A stretch of 32,573 nt of DNA, from positions 1 through 32,573 of the forward strand of contig JAUTCS010000014.1 of NCBI GenBank assembly GCA_030673825.1. Reading direction: 5' to 3'. This document shows, one piece after another, positions 10,280 through 17,412 of this stretch (the stretch's first letter is position 1; the number at the start of each line of letters is the position of its first letter). The notes beneath the pieces are model-generated. The model was not told the origin of the DNA. It made no database searches and worked only from the letters and a program-made list of their open reading frames with translations. A program made the position numbers and the translations under genes. Source of the stretch: Verrucomicrobiota bacterium JB024 (GTDB taxonomy: Bacteria; Verrucomicrobiota; Verrucomicrobiia; Opitutales; Cerasicoccaceae).

Positions 10280-10305
10280 GCCCGCCCCATCAGTCAAAAA
10301 GAGAC

Positions 10306-10680
10306 TGCCCGCGAAGCCACGCGAAGGAGCGCGAAGAATTTCTTCCGGTGCATGACCGCCTCAGCGCCAGCGAATGTTCGGAGAGGGGATGTCCAGATAT
10401 GGACATACTTGATTAAGACGTTGTCATCCTGAGCGAGCGCAGCGAGTCGAAGGATCTCCTCGTGCGTATTTCCCCATCCCAAGATACTTGTACGCGGAGA
10501 GCCTTTGAGACGCCCCGACGTGGACTTGCTCAGGATGACAACAGCCTGCCTGATTCCCCCGCTTGAGCCTCAGCCGCATCGGCAAACATTGCGAGTATCC
10601 CTGACGCGACCAGCCCGCTACCGGCCGCCTGTGTAGCGTAACAGTTGACCTTCGCGCCCCATCGCGTGGCTTCGCGGGCA
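10306..10680. repeat. Second MITE-like element, 31-bp terminal inverted repeats
   Basis: The left arm at 10306-10336 begins TGCCCGCGAAGCCACGCGA; the right arm at 10650-10680 ends with its exact 19-base inverse. Over 31 bases there are two mismatches. It is the same family as 1281-1465 but twice as long, because another inverted-repeat element (10420-10542) lies within it. Confidence 0.75.
10420..10542. repeat. Nested 123-bp repeat with perfect 15-bp inverted ends
   Basis: The ends are GTTGTCATCCTGAGC at 10420-10434 and its exact inverse at 10528-10542. The TCATCCTGAGCGNAGCGAAGGATC-like core just inside the left end resembles short dispersed repeats that I recall from several bacterial phyla. 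It carries no ORF of note. Confidence 0.65.
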
Positions 10681-10693
10681 AGCTCCCACCCAC

Positions 10694-10770: not shown

Positions 10771-11859
10771 TTACGAGCCGAGCTGCTTCATGATCATATC
10801 GGTGACCTTCTGCACGAGCGCTTCGGTCTCGTCCTTGCCCTCGGGCTTGAAGTTCTGGGGCTGGATGACGCCGGTGTCGAGCTGGCAAACCACGCCGGGG
10901 CGGAACTCCGCGTTGTCGCACAGTTCGCACTCCTTCCAGTCGGCGCGCTTCTCGGGCATGCCCAGGCTGGTGCGGATGTTCATGAGATCCTTGAGCTTCT
11001 GCGGGCCGTAGGTCTTCATGCCGCCGAGCTGAGAGGCCACGTACACCGTCTGGCAGTACGACTCGGTGTTTTCCATCTTCCAGTAGGCGTCCTCGACATC
11101 CTTACCCCAGACGATGACCCCGTGGTTTTCCATCAGGATCGACTGGTGATCGGGCGCGAGCTTGCCCACGGTCGCAGCCATCTCGGGCGAGCCGGGGGTC
11201 TCGTAGGGAGCCAGGCCGATCTGGCCAAGGAAAACTTCCGGCTCGGGGATGAGGCAGGTCGGCGGGACCATGCCGCACACGGCAAAGGCGGTGGCGTAGA
11301 TCGGGTGCGCGTGCACGCAGGACTTGGCCTCGGGCGTGGCCTTCATGATGGCCAGGTGCGTGTTGCACTCGCTGGTGCGCTTACGCGTGCCGGCGACCTG
11401 CTTGCCGTCCATGTCCACGAGGCAGATGTCCTCGGGATTGATGTAGCCCTTGGAGATCAGGGTCGGCGTGCAAAGCACGAGGTTGTCACCGACGCGGATG
11501 GTGATGTTGCCGCCGTTGCCGTCGCAGAAGCTGCGGGCCCAGATACGGCGGCCCATGTCGCACATGCGCTCCTTGAGTACCTTGATTTCGGGCGAGTTAA
11601 AGAAAGCCTGGATCGCCTCGGGGGTCTTCGGGTCCGTGCCCGGGGTCCAGTGAAACTCGTAGTCGGGGACGATCGGCTCGGCGGGCTTGCTGGCAGCAGA
11701 GGTGGCCACGGCGGACTTGCCGTTGCGGCCCTTTTTGAGGGCGTCGCGGATGGCGTCGCGCCCGGAAGGAGTGATCACCGCGCTGTCGGGAATGCTGGTG
11801 ACGTCGCCACCGGCGGCCACGAGTTCGGCAATATCTTTGGCTGTGTAAACCTTCTTCAT
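10771..11859 (-). CDS. BMC-associated class II aldolase (fuculose/rhamnulose-1-phosphate type)
   Basis: A 362-residue protein with an aldolase domain at about residues 90-290. Zinc-ligand histidines are seen in CVHAHPIY (183, 185) and MENHGVIV (246), and the likely catalytic Glu164 in TSECNTH. In PVC compartments this enzyme splits L-fuculose- or L-rhamnulose-1-phosphate into DHAP and L-lactaldehyde. The protein is longer than E. coli FucA (about 215 residues). An N-terminal piece of about 45 residues (YTAKDIAELVAAGGDV, then SAVITPSGRDAIRD) resembles the N-terminus of EutQ. The C-terminal helix ETEALVQKVTDMIMKQL could be an encapsulation peptide. It is the last gene of the operon. The exact sugar substrate cannot be read from the sequence. 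Confidence 0.88.
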   Translation of the reverse strand: MKKVYTAKDIAELVAAGGDVTSIPDSAVITPSGRDAIRDALKKGRNGKSAVATSAASKPAEPIVPDYEFHWTPGTDPKTPEAIQAFFNSPEIKVLKERMCDMGRRIWARSFCDGNGGNITIRVGDNLVLCTPTLISKGYINPEDICLVDMDGKQVAGTRKRTSECNTHLAIMKATPEAKSCVHAHPIYATAFAVCGMVPPTCLIPEPEVFLGQIGLAPYETPGSPEMAATVGKLAPDHQSILMENHGVIVWGKDVEDAYWKMENTESYCQTVYVASQLGGMKTYGPQKLKDLMNIRTSLGMPEKRADWKECELCDNAEFRPGVVCQLDTGVIQPQNFKPEGKDETEALVQKVTDMIMKQLGS

Positions 11860-11884: not shown

Positions 11885-12181
11885 TCAGGATGCGGGCTGG
11901 TAGTTTAAATTCTCGATGATGGCGGCGTTGTAGGCGTCGATGGGCGTGGGCCGCTCGAAAGGCGCGGTCGCCTCGGCTCCCTCGACGAAGCCGATGATGT
12001 CCCCGCGGGAAGCACCCAGGTCGTCGTACACGACGACGGAGGCGGACTTCGAGATCAGCTCCTCGCCGGGCTGCGAGAGCTGCGGGCGGGACATGGGGCT
12101 GACGATCATCCAGCGGGCCCCGCGAAAGGCGGGGTCCTGGCGGCTGAGAGTGACTCTCCCGATGACGCGTCCGAGTCTCAT
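11885..12181 (-). CDS. BMC-P shell pentamer protein (EutN/CcmL family)
   Basis: A 98-residue vertex protein of the compartment shell. MRLGRVIGRVTLS is the standard opening of the family, and SASVVVYDDLGASRGDIIGFVEG contains the turn and strand seen in EutN/CcmL pentamers. Pentamers close the twelve corners of the icosahedral shell. The start codon lies 2 bp beyond the stop of the preceding BMC-P gene, so the two are probably translationally coupled. The C-terminus (APFERPTPIDAYNAAIIENL) is a slightly extended tail. Confidence 0.93.
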   Translation of the reverse strand: MRLGRVIGRVTLSRQDPAFRGARWMIVSPMSRPQLSQPGEELISKSASVVVYDDLGASRGDIIGFVEGAEATAPFERPTPIDAYNAAIIENLNYQPAS

Positions 12182-12183
12182 GG

Positions 12184-12438
12184 CTAGTCGATGATCCCCA
12201 TGACCATGTTGCGCAGCGGCGAGTGTTCATCGCCCACGTGCTCGCGCGCGCTGCTGCCGTCGGTGGTATAAAAAACCCGATCGCCAATACCTGCCCCTTG
12301 CTCGTCCATGGCAATGACGGGGTCGCCGGTTTCCCGGCCCTCCTCGTCGATGCCCTGGAGAATGAGCAGACGCCATCCCCTGAGGGTCTTGTGACAGACC
12401 GTCGAGGTGATGTTACCGTCTACGCGGGCGAGGATCAT
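12184..12438 (-). CDS. BMC-P shell pentamer protein (EutN/CcmL family), short form
   Basis: An 84-residue shell protein. MILARVDGNITSTVCHKTLRG opens with the family pattern (residues 1-20) and is followed by GIGDRVFYTTDGSSAREHVGD and the closing VMGIID strand. The frame is open upstream into the aldehyde dehydrogenase gene region, but that stretch is not protein-like; the ATG at 12438 gives the correct family length. No Shine-Dalgarno sequence is visible. It differs enough from the other two BMC-P proteins to be a separate paralogue, as expected for the three-pentamer PVC shell. Confidence 0.92.
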   Translation of the reverse strand: MILARVDGNITSTVCHKTLRGWRLLILQGIDEEGRETGDPVIAMDEQGAGIGDRVFYTTDGSSAREHVGDEHSPLRNMVMGIID

Positions 12439-12476
12439 GGCGATGGGCGATTGAGTTATGCGGGAAAAATAATTCA

Positions 12477-12512
12477 GGAACGAAGAACCAAGCACAAAGA
12501 ACCAGGAACTTC
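12477..12512. repeat. GAACC/AAGCACAAAG intergenic repeat
   Basis: The gap between the aldehyde dehydrogenase and the middle BMC-P gene contains AGAACCAAGCACAAAGAACC, bounded by GGAAC-type repeats. The 12-mer CCAAGCACAAAG (12488-12499) recurs exactly at 28488-28499 in the pabA-nrdR gap. Confidence 0.5.
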
Positions 12513-13973
12513 CTAGTACATCTGGAGGTTGTCCACCATGACGCAGCGGCGGCGGCGGGTGAAGGTGTCGGGCGTGGTAATGCCCTCGCCGGTGGTCGTG
12601 GCGATGGAGAAGCTGGAGTAGCCCTCGCCGCCGGTGCCCAGCCCGGCCAGGCAGGAGCCGTTCTTCACAAACACGGTGGAGTCGAGCGCGCGGGCCATCA
12701 TGCCCATGTGTTCGACGTTCAAAGAGTGGATCATGGACGAGTGCTTGTATCCATGTTCGGATACGCGGGCCAGCTCGATGGCCTCCTCGATGTCGCGCAC
12801 GCGCACCACCGGGACCATCGGCATCATCTGCTCTTCCATGACAAAGGGGTGGTCCGCGTCGGTCTCGGCGAAGAGCAGCTCGGTGTTCGCCGAGCAGCTC
12901 GCACCGGCCACTTCGGCCAGGCGGGTGGCATCCGCGCCCACGAGATCGCGATTGAGCACCGGGTGCGAGCAGCCGCCGCCGTCCTTCTTGTAGGTGAAGG
13001 CGGCCTCGGTCAGCTTGGCCAGTTGCGCGTCGTTGATCTGGACGGCTCCGGCTTCCTTGAAGGCCTGGAGGAACGCGCCGTAAATCTTGTCGAGGACGAA
13101 GATCTGCTTTTCGCCCACGCACAGCAGGTTGTTGTCGAAGGCGGCACCGACGATGATATCGCGGGCGGCCTTCTTCAGGTTGGCGGACTCGTCCACCACC
13201 ACGGGCGGGTTGCCCGGACCGGCGCAGATGGCGCGCTTACCGCTGGCCATGGCGGCGTTGACCACGCCGGGACCGCCGGTGACGCACAGCAGGTTCACAT
13301 GCGGCGACTTGCACAGGGCAGAGAAGGACTCCAGCGTCGGCTTCTCGATGATCGTCACGAGATTTTCGATACCGACTTCGTCCTTGAAGAGACGGTTATA
13401 AAAACGGATGGCCTCGGCCGCGCAACGGGCACCGCCTGGGTGCGCGTTGAAAACGACGCCGTTACCCGCGGCAACCATGCTGACGATGTTACAGCTGATG
13501 GTCGGGATGGAGTGAGTGACCGGCGTGATCGCGCCGACGACGCCGAAGGGCGTGTTCTCCTCCATCGTGATCCCGTGATCGCCGCTCATGCCGCGCGGGG
13601 CGAGCCACTCGACGCCGGGCAGGCCGGGGATGCCGGAGAGCTTGGCAATCTTGTGCTCCAGACGGCCGATCTTCGTTTCGTCGAACTCGAGCTTGCCCCA
13701 CTCCTGAGCCTTCTCGGCGCAGGTGCGCTTGACGATGTTGACGATCTTCGCGCGCCCGGCGATGCCGAGCTTGCGCAGCTGCTTCTGGGCATGGGCGGCG
13801 GCTTCAGAAGCCTCGCCCGCATCCTGGAAGACCCCGTCGCGGCCCTTGGCCGAAGAGGAGGTCTTGCTGCAACCGCAATCGGCGCTCTTGGCGGAGGCCG
13901 CCTGCTGGCCGAGTTTTTTCAAAACGTCTTCCACCACGGATTTGAGCGTGGCTTCGTCAATGTTCAGACTCAT
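12513..13973 (-). CDS. BMC CoA-acylating aldehyde dehydrogenase
   Basis: A 486-residue enzyme of the PduP/EutE type that oxidises an aldehyde, here probably L-lactaldehyde, to the acyl-CoA with NAD+. Residues 1-22 (LNIDEATLKSVVEDVLKKLG) form an amphipathic helix followed by a Ser/Ala/Cys linker, the usual layout of an encapsulation peptide. Catalytic Cys is at about 285 in FDNNLLCVGEKQ; the preceding AGPGNPPVVVDE and the FNAHPGGARCA segment are typical of this family. The linker contains DCGCSKTSSS, an unusual pair of cysteines. The gene lies between two BMC-P genes. Substrate choice is inferred from the aldolase in the operon. Confidence 0.93.
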   Translation of the reverse strand: MSLNIDEATLKSVVEDVLKKLGQQAASAKSADCGCSKTSSSAKGRDGVFQDAGEASEAAAHAQKQLRKLGIAGRAKIVNIVKRTCAEKAQEWGKLEFDETKIGRLEHKIAKLSGIPGLPGVEWLAPRGMSGDHGITMEENTPFGVVGAITPVTHSIPTISCNIVSMVAAGNGVVFNAHPGGARCAAEAIRFYNRLFKDEVGIENLVTIIEKPTLESFSALCKSPHVNLLCVTGGPGVVNAAMASGKRAICAGPGNPPVVVDESANLKKAARDIIVGAAFDNNLLCVGEKQIFVLDKIYGAFLQAFKEAGAVQINDAQLAKLTEAAFTYKKDGGGCSHPVLNRDLVGADATRLAEVAGASCSANTELLFAETDADHPFVMEEQMMPMVPVVRVRDIEEAIELARVSEHGYKHSSMIHSLNVEHMGMMARALDSTVFVKNGSCLAGLGTGGEGYSSFSIATTTGEGITTPDTFTRRRRCVMVDNLQMY

Positions 13974-14005: not shown

Positions 14006-14317
14006 TCAGGGCTTGTCCTTGTAGACCTGTTGGCCGAGCACATCGACCGTGTCCACAATGCCGATGACGGCGGCGTCCACCGGAAGCTGTTTCATGCCGT
14101 CGGTCTGACGGGCGGAGCTGCCCGAGCAGAACAGGACCATCTCACCGGCACCGGCACCGAGCCGGTCCACGGCGACGATCGTGTTCGAGCCGTCGCGGAG
14201 CTGTCCGGGGTTGGCCGGGTCCACCACCTGGGGCCGCAGCACCAGCAGGCGCTGCCCCACCATGGCGGGGTCCTTTTTCGTCGAGACGACGTGGCCGATG
14301 ACTTTGGCGAGAAACAT
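14006..14317 (-). CDS. BMC-P shell pentamer protein (EutN/CcmL family), long form
   Basis: A 103-residue pentamer. MFLAKVIGHVVSTKKDPAMVG is the family opening, RLLVLRPQVVD the second strand, and IVAVDRLGAGAGEMVLFCSGSS the conserved turn with Gly residues. The frame is open upstream to 14410 but that part is repeat DNA; the ATG at 14317 is the family start. The start codon lies only nine bases after the 3' arm of a long mRNA hairpin (14327-14420), so its translation may be limited, which would suit a protein needed in few copies. Confidence 0.93.
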   Translation of the reverse strand: MFLAKVIGHVVSTKKDPAMVGQRLLVLRPQVVDPANPGQLRDGSNTIVAVDRLGAGAGEMVLFCSGSSARQTDGMKQLPVDAAVIGIVDTVDVLGQQVYKDKP

Positions 14318-14326
14318 CTTTATTAA

Positions 14327-14420
14327 GTTTGAGAGTTTGAGAGTTCCTGGTTCGAGAGTTCGCAGTGCCGGTGCGTCTGGCCACGAGGGGCGCGCACCGG
14401 CAACTTTCAAACTCTCAAAC
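14327..14420 (-). promoter_or_regulatory. Long intercistronic hairpin after BMC-H gene
   Basis: GTTTGAGAGTTTGAGAGTT at 14327-14345 faces AACTTTCAAACTCTCAAAC at 14402-14420: a 19-bp stem with one mismatch that becomes G-U in RNA. Inside it is a perfect 10-bp GC stem (TGCCGGTGCG 14366-14375 with CGCACCGGCA 14393-14402; one base is shared with the outer arm). It lies between a BMC-H cistron and a BMC-P cistron. Role as mRNA stabiliser, attenuator or repeat remnant is inferred. Confidence 0.6.
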
Positions 14421-14454
14421 GTTCAAACGCTCAAACACCCGTCAGGGTTCCGGG

Positions 14455-14742
14455 TTACTTCTTGGCGGGGGCCTTGATGAGGCTCTTGCTCAGGTCGTCG
14501 TGCGGACGCGCGATGACGTGGGCGCTGACCACTTCGCCGAAGGCGGAGGCAGACTGCGCGCCGGCGTCGATGGCGGCCTTGACCGCGGCGACGTCGCCGG
14601 TGATGGTGGCGCTGACCAGAGCGCTACCGACGTTCTTCATCGGGCCGACCAGCTCGACATTGGCTGCCTTGAGCATGGCATCAACGCCCTGCACGAGCGA
14701 GATAAGACCTTTGGTTTCGAGGAGTCCGAGTGCTTGGGACAT
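14455..14742 (-). CDS. BMC-H shell hexamer protein (paralogue closest to the aldolase end)
   Basis: A 95-residue single BMC domain. MSQALGLLETKGLISLVQGVD has the conserved ETKG start, VSATITGDVAAVKAAIDAG the typical second helix, and SAHVIARPHDDL the closing strand. Such proteins form the hexameric tiles of the shell facets, and the central pore lets small metabolites through. It differs from the other two BMC-H by a longer basic tail (KSLIKAPAKK). The leader has no Shine-Dalgarno sequence and contains ACCAACCCAAC, also found before the BMC-H gene at 16664. Confidence 0.95.
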   Translation of the reverse strand: MSQALGLLETKGLISLVQGVDAMLKAANVELVGPMKNVGSALVSATITGDVAAVKAAIDAGAQSASAFGEVVSAHVIARPHDDLSKSLIKAPAKK

Positions 14743-14787: not shown

Positions 14788-15978
14788 TCAGGAGGCCGGG
14801 GCCAGGCGCGCCTGCATGAAGCGGTACACTTCGCGGGCGACGACCAGCTCTTCGTTGGCCGGAATGACGAGGCCCTTGATCGCGGCATCGTCGGTGGTGA
14901 AGGTCCCCTCGCCTTTGAGGGAATCGTTGGCGGCCGTGTCGAGCTTTAACCCGAAGGGCTCAAGCCCCGCGCAGACCGCCGAGCGCAGGAAGGAGTTGTT
15001 CTCGCCGATACCGCCGGTGAAGGCGATGGCGTCGATGCCGCCCATCTGCCAGAAGAAGCTGCCCGCCCACTGCCGGATGCTGTGCACCAGGACATCGAGC
15101 GCGAGCTTCGCGCGTTCGTTCCCCGCCGCAGTGGCTTCGAGGATGTCGCGCAGGTCGTTGCTGACGCCGGAGAGGCCGAGCAAGCCGCCCTCTTTCGTCA
15201 TCTGACGCTCGATCTCGTCGATGGAGAGGCCGCCGACCTTCAGCATGTACGGGACCGCCATCGCATCGAGGTCGCCCACACGGTTGTTTTGCGGGACGCC
15301 GCCCTGCGGCGAAAAGCCCATGCTGGAGCCGATGGCGACGCCGTTGCGGATGCCCGTGATGGAGCTGCTGCCGCCGAGGTGACAGGAGACGACGCGCAGC
15401 GGCTTGTCCACCGGCGTATCACCTTTCTGATACAGGCGCTGAACCTTCTCGGCGACATCGTCGCGCCCGAGCAGTTGCGCGGAACGCTCGGCCACGAACT
15501 TGTGGCTCGCGCCGTGGAAGCCGTAGCGGCGTACGCCCAGCTCGTACCAGATCTCGGGGACGGCGTAGCGGCAAGCCGCGGGGGCCATCCACTGGTAAAA
15601 CGCCGTCTCGAAGAGCGCCACACGCGTGACCTTGGGCATGACCCGGGCGAACTGCTTGATCCCGGCAGCGTAGGCCGGGTTGTGCGCCGGGGCCATGGCC
15701 TCGAAGCCCTTGAGGGCCTCCAGCACCTTATCGTCGGCCTCGACACAACCGCTGAGCTTCTTGCCCAGGACGGTCTTGAAGCCGACCGCGTCCAGGTCGT
15801 CCGCGCCCTTGAGGTGCCCCTGCTCGGAGAGAGACTTGATACAGTCCTCGATCACCGGGCCGAAGTCCTCGACGCGCTCGTACCCTCCCTTGGCCAGGAG
15901 AGTCTCCGCCCCGCCGCCCAGCTCGAAGAGCCGGTACTTGAACGAGGTTGAGCCGAGATTGGAGACGAGAATTTTCAC
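14788..15978 (-). CDS. ackA: BMC-associated acetate/acyl kinase homologue (AckA family)
   Basis: A 396-residue ASKHA-fold kinase, the ATP-yielding last step of the compartment pathway (acyl-phosphate plus ADP to acid plus ATP), probably acting in the cytosol or at the shell. Family features are VSNLGSTSFKYRLFE, APAHNPA, YGFHGASHKFVA, SCHLGGSSSITG, SMGFSP, NNRVGDLD and ANEELVVAREV. Two key positions differ from classical acetate kinases: the HRVVHGG segment carrying the essential Arg reads FKTVLGK (Lys68), and FDTAFH carrying the catalytic Asp reads FETAFY (Glu124). The start codon is GTG. The true substrate may be lactyl-phosphate rather than acetyl-phosphate; this is inferred, not seen. Confidence 0.88.
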   Translation of the reverse strand: MKILVSNLGSTSFKYRLFELGGGAETLLAKGGYERVEDFGPVIEDCIKSLSEQGHLKGADDLDAVGFKTVLGKKLSGCVEADDKVLEALKGFEAMAPAHNPAYAAGIKQFARVMPKVTRVALFETAFYQWMAPAACRYAVPEIWYELGVRRYGFHGASHKFVAERSAQLLGRDDVAEKVQRLYQKGDTPVDKPLRVVSCHLGGSSSITGIRNGVAIGSSMGFSPQGGVPQNNRVGDLDAMAVPYMLKVGGLSIDEIERQMTKEGGLLGLSGVSNDLRDILEATAAGNERAKLALDVLVHSIRQWAGSFFWQMGGIDAIAFTGGIGENNSFLRSAVCAGLEPFGLKLDTAANDSLKGEGTFTTDDAAIKGLVIPANEELVVAREVYRFMQARLAPAS

Positions 15979-15991
15979 AGCGTACTTACGC

Positions 15992-16073
15992 GTTTGAAAG
16001 TTTGAAAGTTTGAGAGTTGCTCAGAGTCCTGCCCACGAAGGCTCCGGACTCTCAAACACTCAAACTCTCAAAC
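15992..16073 (-). promoter_or_regulatory. Long intercistronic hairpin between BMC-H and ackA
   Basis: A 26-base left arm (15992-16017) made of three GTTTGARAG units faces a 26-base right arm (16048-16073) with three mismatches. It lies 12 bases beyond the BMC-H stop and 13 before the ackA start. It uses the same GTTTGAGAG unit as the hairpin at 14327-14420. Confidence 0.6.
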
Positions 16074-16085
16074 ACATGAACTTAT

Positions 16086-16364
16086 TTAGGCGATCCAGGG
16101 ACCGAGCTTGGAAAGGTCGTCGTGCGGGCGGGGGATCACCTGGACGCCGACCACCTGGCCAACGCTCGAGGCGGCTTCCGCGCCAGCGTCAACGGCGGCC
16201 TTGACCGCGGCGACGTCGCCCGTGAAGAAGCCCGTGACGATCCCGCTGCCGATCTTTTCCCAGCCGGCGAGGGAGACGTCAGCCGCCTTCAGGGCGGCGT
16301 CGGTGGCTTCGAGCAGGCTGATCAGGCCCTTGGTTTCGATCATGCCGATAGCTTGTTTTGCCAT
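16086..16364 (-). CDS. BMC-H shell hexamer protein
   Basis: A 92-residue single BMC domain protein forming shell facets. MAKQAIGMIETKGLISLLEATD carries the conserved IETKG motif; FFTGDVAAVKAAVDAGAEAA and VQVIPRPHDDL complete the fold. It is a close paralogue of the gene just upstream (16395-16664), with a 30-bp gap between them, and looks like a tandem duplication followed by divergence. A long hairpin follows its stop codon. Residues lining the pore cannot be assigned safely without a structure-based alignment. Confidence 0.95.
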   Translation of the reverse strand: MAKQAIGMIETKGLISLLEATDAALKAADVSLAGWEKIGSGIVTGFFTGDVAAVKAAVDAGAEAASSVGQVVGVQVIPRPHDDLSKLGPWIA

Positions 16365-16394: not shown

Positions 16395-16664
16395 TTACAG
16401 TTCGAACTGCTTGATGAGGTCCGGGTGCGGACGGGGGATGACGTGCGAGGAAACGAGTTCGCCCACGCGCGAGGCAGCTTCGGAGCCGGCGTCCACCGCC
16501 GCTTTGACGCTGCCGACGTCGCCCTTGACCACGACGGTGATGAAGCCGCCGCCGATCTGGACGCTGCGGGCCAGGGAGACCCCCGCCGCCTTGACCATGG
16601 CGTCGCTGGCTTCAACGCTGCCAACGTAGCCCTTGGTTTCGACCATGCCTATTGATTCGCTCAT
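16395..16664 (-). CDS. BMC-H shell hexamer protein
   Basis: An 89-residue single BMC domain protein. MSESIGMVETKGYVGSVEASD, the helix GDVGSVKAAVDAGSEAASRVG and the final SSHVIPRPHPDL define the family. It is the first shell gene after pduL. The segment around residues 35-45 (RSVQIGGGFITV) carries GGG where the pore loop is expected; the neighbouring paralogues have different residues there, so the three hexamers may differ in pore properties. Its leader contains ACCAACCCAAC and no Shine-Dalgarno sequence. Confidence 0.95.
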   Translation of the reverse strand: MSESIGMVETKGYVGSVEASDAMVKAAGVSLARSVQIGGGFITVVVKGDVGSVKAAVDAGSEAASRVGELVSSHVIPRPHPDLIKQFEL

Positions 16665-16734: not shown

Positions 16735-17412
16735 TTACTTGACCAGCTCCACCTGGCTTTTCGGGCCGAGGCGGCAGGCGTTGCCCTCGTCGGTGTCGAT
16801 GTGGACCTCCAGCTTGAAGGATTTGTCCACGCGGACGAAAATGCGGTCGAAGGTCACGCCGAGCTCGCCGCCCACGCGCATCTTCATAAAGTCGCCCTGC
16901 TTGACGCCATAGAACGCCGCATCCTCCGGCGCCATGTGCACGTGCGGAGCGGCGCGGATGACGCCCTCGTCGAGTTCGAGGAATCCCTTCGGCCCCATCA
17001 GCATGCAGCCGGGGGTACCCTTGATGTCGCCAGACTGGCGCACCGGGATATCGTAGCCCAGCGCGATCGCGTCGGTGAAGGCGAGCTCAACCTGATTGAG
17101 CGGGCGGCACGGGCCGAGAATGCGCAGGTTGGAAATCACGCGGCTGCGCGGGCCCACGAGGGTGACGGACTCCTGAGCGGCGTACTGCCCCTCTTGATAG
17201 AGCCACTTCATCGGCGTGAGCTGGTGGCCGGGGCCAAAAAGCTTTTCCACCGCCTCGGGGGACAGGTGGCAGTGCCGGGCGCTGGTGTTCACCACGAGGG
17301 GATTGGGCGCCTGACGGGCAGCGGGCGCGGCCTTGCCGAGCTGCTTGTAAATGCTCTCGCGAACCAGCCGCTCGATGGCGGCCCGGGTCAGGTCAGGAGT
17401 AGCTTGGGCCAT
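16735..17412 (-). CDS. pduL: BMC phosphotransacylase PduL
   Basis: A 225-residue phosphate acyltransferase that turns the acyl-CoA into acyl-phosphate and returns CoA inside the compartment. The catalytic metal-binding elements are NTSARHCHLSPEAVEKLFG and AAPHVHMAPEDA; the pattern RQSGDIKGTPGCMLMGPKG links the two halves. Residues 1-27 (DLTRAAIERLVRESIYKQLG) form an amphipathic helix with a Pro/Ala linker, a typical encapsulation peptide. It is the first gene of the operon; 217 bp upstream holds the presumed promoter. No Shine-Dalgarno sequence precedes the ATG. Confidence 0.95.
   Translation of the reverse strand: MAQATPDLTRAAIERLVRESIYKQLGKAAPAARQAPNPLVVNTSARHCHLSPEAVEKLFGPGHQLTPMKWLYQEGQYAAQESVTLVGPRSRVISNLRILGPCRPLNQVELAFTDAIALGYDIPVRQSGDIKGTPGCMLMGPKGFLELDEGVIRAAPHVHMAPEDAAFYGVKQGDFMKMRVGGELGVTFDRIFVRVDKSFKLEVHIDTDEGNACRLGPKSQVELVK

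Follow-up and report, generated by a model that had tools for sequence, protein, structure and literature searches.

Which reaction is served by a microcompartment kinase that profile scores place among the acetate/propionate kinases and whose active site departs from that of acetate kinase? The question is raised by a locus of Verrucomicrobiota bacterium JB024, contained in a stretch of 32,573 nucleotides (contig JAUTCS010000014.1, here the window), in which a kinase gene lies among shell protein genes (Table 1).

Table 1. Genes of the microcompartment locus and remodelled or kept residues of its kinase (window coordinates; residue equivalences in Methanosarcina thermophila acetate kinase numbering).
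Feature	Position	Strand	Basis
Class II aldolase, signature enzyme of PVM loci	10771..11859	-	PF00596 E 1.4e-45; role from PMC4207490
EutN/BMC-P shell protein	11885..12181	-	PF03319
EutN/BMC-P shell protein	12184..12516 (stretch scanned)	-	PF03319 from residue 27; true start probably internal
Acylating aldehyde dehydrogenase	12513..13973	-	PF00171; NF011927 588.7 bits, cut-off 403
EutN/BMC-P shell protein	14006..14410	-	PF03319 from residue 32; true start probably internal to the ORF
BMC-H shell protein	14455..14742	-	PF00936
Acetokinase-family gene, 396 aa, remodelled catalytic site	14788..15978	-	ORF, profiles, AlphaFold2 model
Glu376 = position of Glu384, kept	14851..14853	-	Alignment
Asn231-Asn232-Arg233 = positions of Gly239-Thr240-Arg241 (LOOP3)	15280..15288	-	Alignment; loop pLDDT under 50
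Gly203-Ser204 = positions of Asn211-Gly212 (PHOSPHATE2)	15367..15372	-	Alignment
Glu124 = position of Asp148, codon GAG	15607..15609	-	Alignment
Ala98 = position of Leu122 of the acetate pocket	15685..15687	-	Alignment
Lys68 = position of Arg91, codon AAG	15775..15777	-	Alignment to 1g99
BMC-H shell protein	16086..16364	-	PF00936
BMC-H shell protein	16395..16664	-	PF00936
PduL-type phosphate acyltransferase (PTAC)	16735..17412	-	PF06130 E 2.8e-71

The kinase and its locus

The reading frame of the kinase opens with GTG and runs without an internal stop. The protein matches Pfam PF00871 over its full length (E 3.7e-90, 302.9 bits, cut-off 22) and exceeds the cut-off of TIGR00016 (300.1 against 293.4 bits), and is thus a member of both families; with the butyrate kinase model TIGR02707 it reaches 55.4 bits, against a cut-off of 289.1, and falls outside that family. 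By profile score alone, its name would be acetate/propionate kinase. The AlphaFold2 model (pLDDT 87, under 50 in LOOP3) has the ASKHA acetate kinase fold, with a VIA-align Z of 41.6 to 1g99 over 363 residues (rmsd 3.0).

PVM microcompartments have a PF00596 aldolase as their signature enzyme and a gene set that includes an "acetate kinase" (PMC4207490). The window encodes such a class II aldolase together with shell proteins, an aldehyde dehydrogenase and PduL, and its locus is of the PVM type. The kinase corresponds to the PVM "acetate kinase" (PvmG; Erbilgin 2014, Axen 2014), being the same gene in the same type of locus; changed catalytic residues find no mention in the parts of PMC4207490 and PMC6620236 considered here.

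Repeats are also present in this region. A 36-nt inverted repeat, 89% complementary (10301-10336 and 10650-10685), lies downstream of the aldolase gene. Tandem 8-nt units of the form GTTTGARA occur in inverted arrangement in two intergenic stretches of the operon, one between a BMC-H gene and the kinase gene (15979-16085), the other between another BMC-H gene and a EutN gene (14320-14450); the RNA of both is predicted to form long hairpins (z -7.30 and -7.25). The pattern has 7 matches, compared with 0 in 100 shuffles. A longer form of it is missing from 230 of 232 loci, the remaining two being copies of the window place. At gathering scores, no Rfam family matches the window.

Remodelled catalytic residues

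The initial annotation had described an acetate kinase with changed catalytic positions, in which HRVVHGG reads FKTVLGK (Lys for Arg91) and FDTAFH reads FETAFY (Glu for Asp148), the second active-site Arg and a late Glu being kept. Alignment to M. thermophila 1g99 bears out this description: Lys68 falls opposite Arg91, with one gapped column after it, Glu124 opposite Asp148, and Arg233 and Glu376 opposite Arg241 and Glu384. No substitute Arg is found opposite residues 84-101 and no substitute Asp opposite 142-156. The kinase shares Asn7, Ser10, Ser12, Lys14, His123, His180, Arg241, Gly331 and Glu384 with AckA (M. thermophila 1g99/1tuy; PF00871), but differs from it by S11T (in what is presumably part of PHOSPHATE1), H90F, R91K, L122A, D148E, N211G, G212S, G239N and T240N and belongs to a separate clade. 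Apart from R91K and D148E, these exchanges go beyond what had been noted before, as does H94L.

The residue pairs that mark a canonical acetate kinase (EC 2.7.2.1) are consequently incomplete. Arg241 and Glu384 are kept while their partners Arg91 and Asp148 are replaced by Lys68 and Glu124, and both members of the pair Asn211 (PHOSPHATE2) and Gly239 (LOOP3) are exchanged, for Gly203 and Asn231. In the M. thermophila enzyme, Arg91 and Arg241 contact the acetate carboxylate, and the R91A variant retains 0.3% of kcat (PMC6461089). Asn211 touches the beta-phosphate and is hydrogen-bonded to Gly239; the changes tested at these two residues lower activity 6- to 200-fold (PMC4390882). For the Salmonella enzyme, Leu122 is given as an acetate-binding residue and Asp150 as a metal-binding one (PMC3475010), the latter being Asp148 here because of a numbering offset. 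None of the published N211, G239 and R91A mutants equals the residue combination of the window kinase.

Two related kinases were compared. The propionate kinase PduW (Klebsiella pneumoniae, 7fj7) is likewise named for a microcompartment locus and is 40% identical to the window kinase when structurally aligned (Z 42.8). Unlike the window kinase, it retains HR/LH/FD/GNG/MGTR at the signature sites and combines Ala93 with Leu122, against Val and Ala at these two positions of the window kinase. Butyrate kinase (1saz, TIGR02707) shares with the window kinase the fold (Z 26.8), Thr11 and, at 122, an aligned HA motif. Three butyrate kinase sequences also have Gly at 211, in what is a loose alignment, but retain Asp148 and have no LOOP3 motif, unlike the window kinase.

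Conservation of the signature

A kinase match (E<=1e-20) occurs in 195 of 288 genomes of the phylum. Among these, 28 matches at 58-100% identity are set apart, the next being at 49% and below. These 28 sequences, picked by overall similarity alone, all carry F90, K91, A122, E148, G211 and S212. A pattern scan of an 84,980-species collection gave at least 584 stretches encoding relatives, of which 80 were read (5 being duplicate sequences), and the gene probably occurs in hundreds of genomes. Among plasmid sequences, 368 records matched, all under 60% identity, the 40 matches listed reaching at most 38.4%.

The signature set comprises 111 unique sequences including that of the window (116 rows minus the duplicates L035, L043, L079, L087 and L095). 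L138-L142 were excluded as repeats of collected loci, and L111-L114 were likewise omitted from the alignment. The comparison set consists of 36 canonical acetate kinases, with the butyrate kinase BUK_L137 left out. K91, E148, G211 and S212 are found in 111/111 signature sequences and in 0/36 canonical ones, the residue-91 counts being imposed by construction because the groups were divided on this residue, and the other columns being free of this constraint. Ala122 is present in 109 of the 111, and residue 239 is Asn in 103, Ser in 7 and Gly in 1. The counts at 122 and 211-212 are partly imposed in the 80 pattern-scan loci, because the patterns contain Ala122 or Gly211-Ser212; the 28 loci picked by similarity are free of this bias. 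All 36 canonical enzymes have R91, D148 and G212, and 35 have N211, the remaining one having Ser; at the columns of K91, A122, E148, G211, S212 and N239, the usual residues have at most one exception per column in this group.

Across the whole protein, ten columns switch between the two sets under a 95%/90% rule (11, 90, 91, 122, 148, 211, 212, 231, 233 and 240), columns 231 and 233 flanking Pro232. All ten lie within or beside the ligand- or phosphate-binding segments named in PMC3475010 and PMC4390882. N7, S12, K14, H123, H180, R241, G331 and E384 are invariant in all 111 signature sequences, which speaks for a working kinase. The acyl-pocket residues Val93 and Phe179 are mostly unchanged (107/111 and 110/111). 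Values of dN/dS between the window kinase and four relatives (0.105-0.215) indicate purifying selection and, with the open frame, rule out a pseudogene. Sequencing or assembly error is ruled out by the agreement of relatives from independent genomes.

Both types of kinase may occur in one genome. A second acetate kinase match (E<=1e-20) is present in 8 of the 28 clade genomes and absent from the other 20. Five second kinases that accompany a signature kinase in the same genome (L115, L143, L144, L145 and L146) have R91, D148 and N211. The looser relatives L158, L159, L161 and L162 keep K91, E148, G211 and S212, with variation at 122 and at 239-242.

Origin and compartment linkage

In a tree of 65 selected rows, built by a quick method with three butyrate kinases as the root and computed without the main trait columns (columns 231 and 233 being retained), 33 signature rows form one clade apart from 29 canonical rows (SH-aLRT 98). 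The branches leading to L117 and L146 are long. A single origin of the signature kinases would be the simplest account of this topology. The changed catalytic positions, which the initial annotation had reported for one protein, thus turn out to be coordinated, clade-wide and of single origin on the tree.

The linkage to a compartment also proves stronger than had been proposed. A BMC-H gene is at most 166 bases from the kinase in 80/80 loci of named genomes, and within the 1.5-kb flanks in 28/28 loci picked by similarity. Among the named-genome loci, 66 reach 11 kb; BMC-H is found in all 66 of these, EutN in 65, aldehyde dehydrogenase and PduL in 64 each, and the aldolase in 61. The more distant relatives L029 (49%) and L030 (45%) are likewise located inside PVM-type loci (L149 and L150).

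Some relatives are placed elsewhere. In genome G311, the 17 kb examined of a PVM locus (L221) contain no kinase, and the signature kinase (L157, 52%) of this genome is on another contig (L171), adjoining a DeoR gene and a gene for a 412-aa protein. The DeoR sequence from L171, used as a query, matched 60 collected loci and gave no match in the window. The 412-aa protein (L171 7001-8239) has no Pfam match and has homologues in three PVM loci (L065, L104 and L107); its NCBIfam matches, at E 0.004 and 0.008, are very weak and fall in class I aldolase-like families. The stretches around L158, L159, L161 and L162 (L172, L173, L177 and L178) contain no BMC, PduL, aldehyde dehydrogenase or aldolase match. 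The four genomes concerned have BMC-H genes elsewhere, of which only one, in G297, has an adjoining PduL match.

Proposed function

We slightly favour a reading in which the gene product serves as acyl kinase in an L-fucose or L-rhamnose microcompartment of the PVM type, converting lactyl-phosphate and ADP to lactate and ATP in an acetate kinase cleft that was rebuilt once. The class II aldolase would cleave the sugar phosphate into DHAP and lactaldehyde, the aldehyde dehydrogenase would convert lactaldehyde to lactyl-CoA, and PduL would convert lactyl-CoA to lactyl-phosphate. The kinase, presumably active and with lactyl-phosphate as its main substrate, would then pass the phosphoryl group to ADP. 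A pathway from lactaldehyde through lactyl-CoA and lactyl-phosphate to lactate is published (PMC8857213, PMC6620236). L-rhamnose isomerase is represented in the genome of JB024 by two partial matches, one of them at a contig edge, and support for a fucose isomerase is weak (best 38.6 bits, cut-off 29.3).

The cleft would have been rebuilt from that of an ancestral acetate kinase. Lys would replace Arg91 at the acyl carboxylate or phosphate, and Glu would replace Asp148 at the metal. Because Leu122 is a residue of the acetate pocket (PMC3475010), its exchange for Ala is expected to widen the acyl pocket and may open it for a three-carbon hydroxyacid. The hydrogen-bonded pair Asn211 (PHOSPHATE2) and Gly239 (LOOP3) would have been swapped for Gly and Asn, an exchange after which the pair still consists of an Asn and a Gly and which may be compensatory.

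A marker in the neighbouring enzyme was considered as independent support for lactyl-phosphate. Tyr or Phe at residue 77 of PduL has been linked with lactyl-CoA in a published paper. The window PduL has Gln77, and the residue is Gln in 99, Tyr in 11 and Ala in 7 of 117 rows (109 unique); as it is mostly Gln, the published marker is not general in the PVM-type loci examined, and Tyr77, in 11/117 rows, failed as support. Residue 73 of PduL (rPduL numbering, Lys in rPduL) is Tyr in 116 of the 117 rows and Phe in 1.

Other substrates and roles

A broad-range acetate/propionate kinase, whose site drifted to an equivalent solution and which works for the compartment as well as in general acetyl-phosphate metabolism, is an unlikely reading with arguments of its own. 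The TIGR00016 score is above the cut-off, and Salmonella AckA (StAckA) uses formate, acetate and propionate (PMC3475010). The genome of JB024 encodes a PTA_PTB-family protein, and the window kinase is the only acetate kinase found in it, so that the kinase may also serve acetyl-phosphate. Coordinated changes fixed throughout the signature set and absent from canonical enzymes, however, are poorly matched by drift; 8 of the 28 clade genomes have a second acetate kinase match, and the five second enzymes examined in genomes with a signature kinase have the canonical R91, D148 and N211.

The initial annotation had suggested a lactyl- or propionyl-phosphate kinase for a lactaldehyde pathway, and the two halves of this suggestion fare differently. 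The lactyl half fits the aldolase, aldehyde dehydrogenase and PduL of the locus, the published pathway and the widened pocket. For a propionate kinase, lactaldehyde would be reduced to 1,2-propanediol and the Pdu route would yield propionyl-phosphate; PduW is among the closest structures, and a similar PVM scenario is reviewed in PMC6620236. The same review favours the lactyl route for gut Firmicutes, an aldolase is present, no diol dehydratase is found among the 10 window ORFs scanned by profile, and PduW 7fj7 retains the canonical catalytic residues, all of which makes the propionyl half improbable. A catalytically dead kinase acting as compartment scaffold or regulator would account for the replacement of residues important or essential in the acetate kinases of M. 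thermophila and P. gingivalis. It is very improbable, given that the signature set shows no variation at phosphate-binding and further catalytic sites and that the replacements themselves are fixed; dN/dS is low as well, though this is equally expected of a conserved non-enzyme.

A relative outside microcompartments

The long-branched kinase L117 has the signature, including A122 and N239, and is encoded in genome G083, a single contig of 5.7 Mb in which the genome search gave no BMC-H match. The idea of the signature as an adaptation confined to compartments is weakened by this case. Its gene order is FdrA-AllG-kinase-AllH (L147 7728-13536). Oxamic transcarbamylase is the product of AllFGH in E. 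coli, where ybcF encodes the carbamate kinase (PMC11326118, PMC9843812). An ArcC-type carbamate kinase was not found in G083 by a single profile search (TIGR00746, E<=0.001); as this profile matches all 14 control genomes, mostly below its cut-off, such an enzyme may have been missed at first look. A true carbamate kinase is encoded in the sister genome G263, whose two AllG stretches carry no acetate kinase.

Recurrent linkage of AllG with a kinase was not found among 24 AllG matches in 20 of the 288 genomes. In 20 AllG loci, an acetate kinase is present only in L191, which is the L117 place itself; the match in L192 is a non-acetate-kinase frame extension ahead of L117. Acetate kinases are also absent from five longer AllG stretches, L201-L205, among which are both AllG places of G263 and the second one of G083. 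The L117 kinase, a single case, may act on carbamoyl phosphate. Since it lies outside any microcompartment, the subfamily may not be lactate-specific, and the signature is no proof of lactate. More broadly, one ancient rebuilding of the cleft, including the Asn211/Gly239 exchange, could have founded an unrecognised subfamily of acyl-phosphate kinases, with the PVM lactate kinase as its main branch and with L117 as a deep branch that replaces carbamate kinase and acts on carbamoyl phosphate; this extended scheme is tentative and, on the present comparison, rather doubtful.

Implications

The microcompartment kinase and the lactyl-phosphate pathway are already published. No account of a conserved remodelled site or of its single origin was found in the available parts of the literature on PVM kinases and lactyl-phosphate, and the 2014 characterisation of the planctomycete compartment may say more. 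The signature kinases offer a natural test of how far an acyl kinase can do without residues regarded as essential in acetate kinase, and because Arg91 and Asp148 are exchanged together with the partner pair 211/239, compensation is testable by mutation. Should the enzyme prove to be a lactate kinase, the final step by which polysaccharide degraders gain energy from fucose and rhamnose would have an enzyme recognisable by a mark in its sequence.
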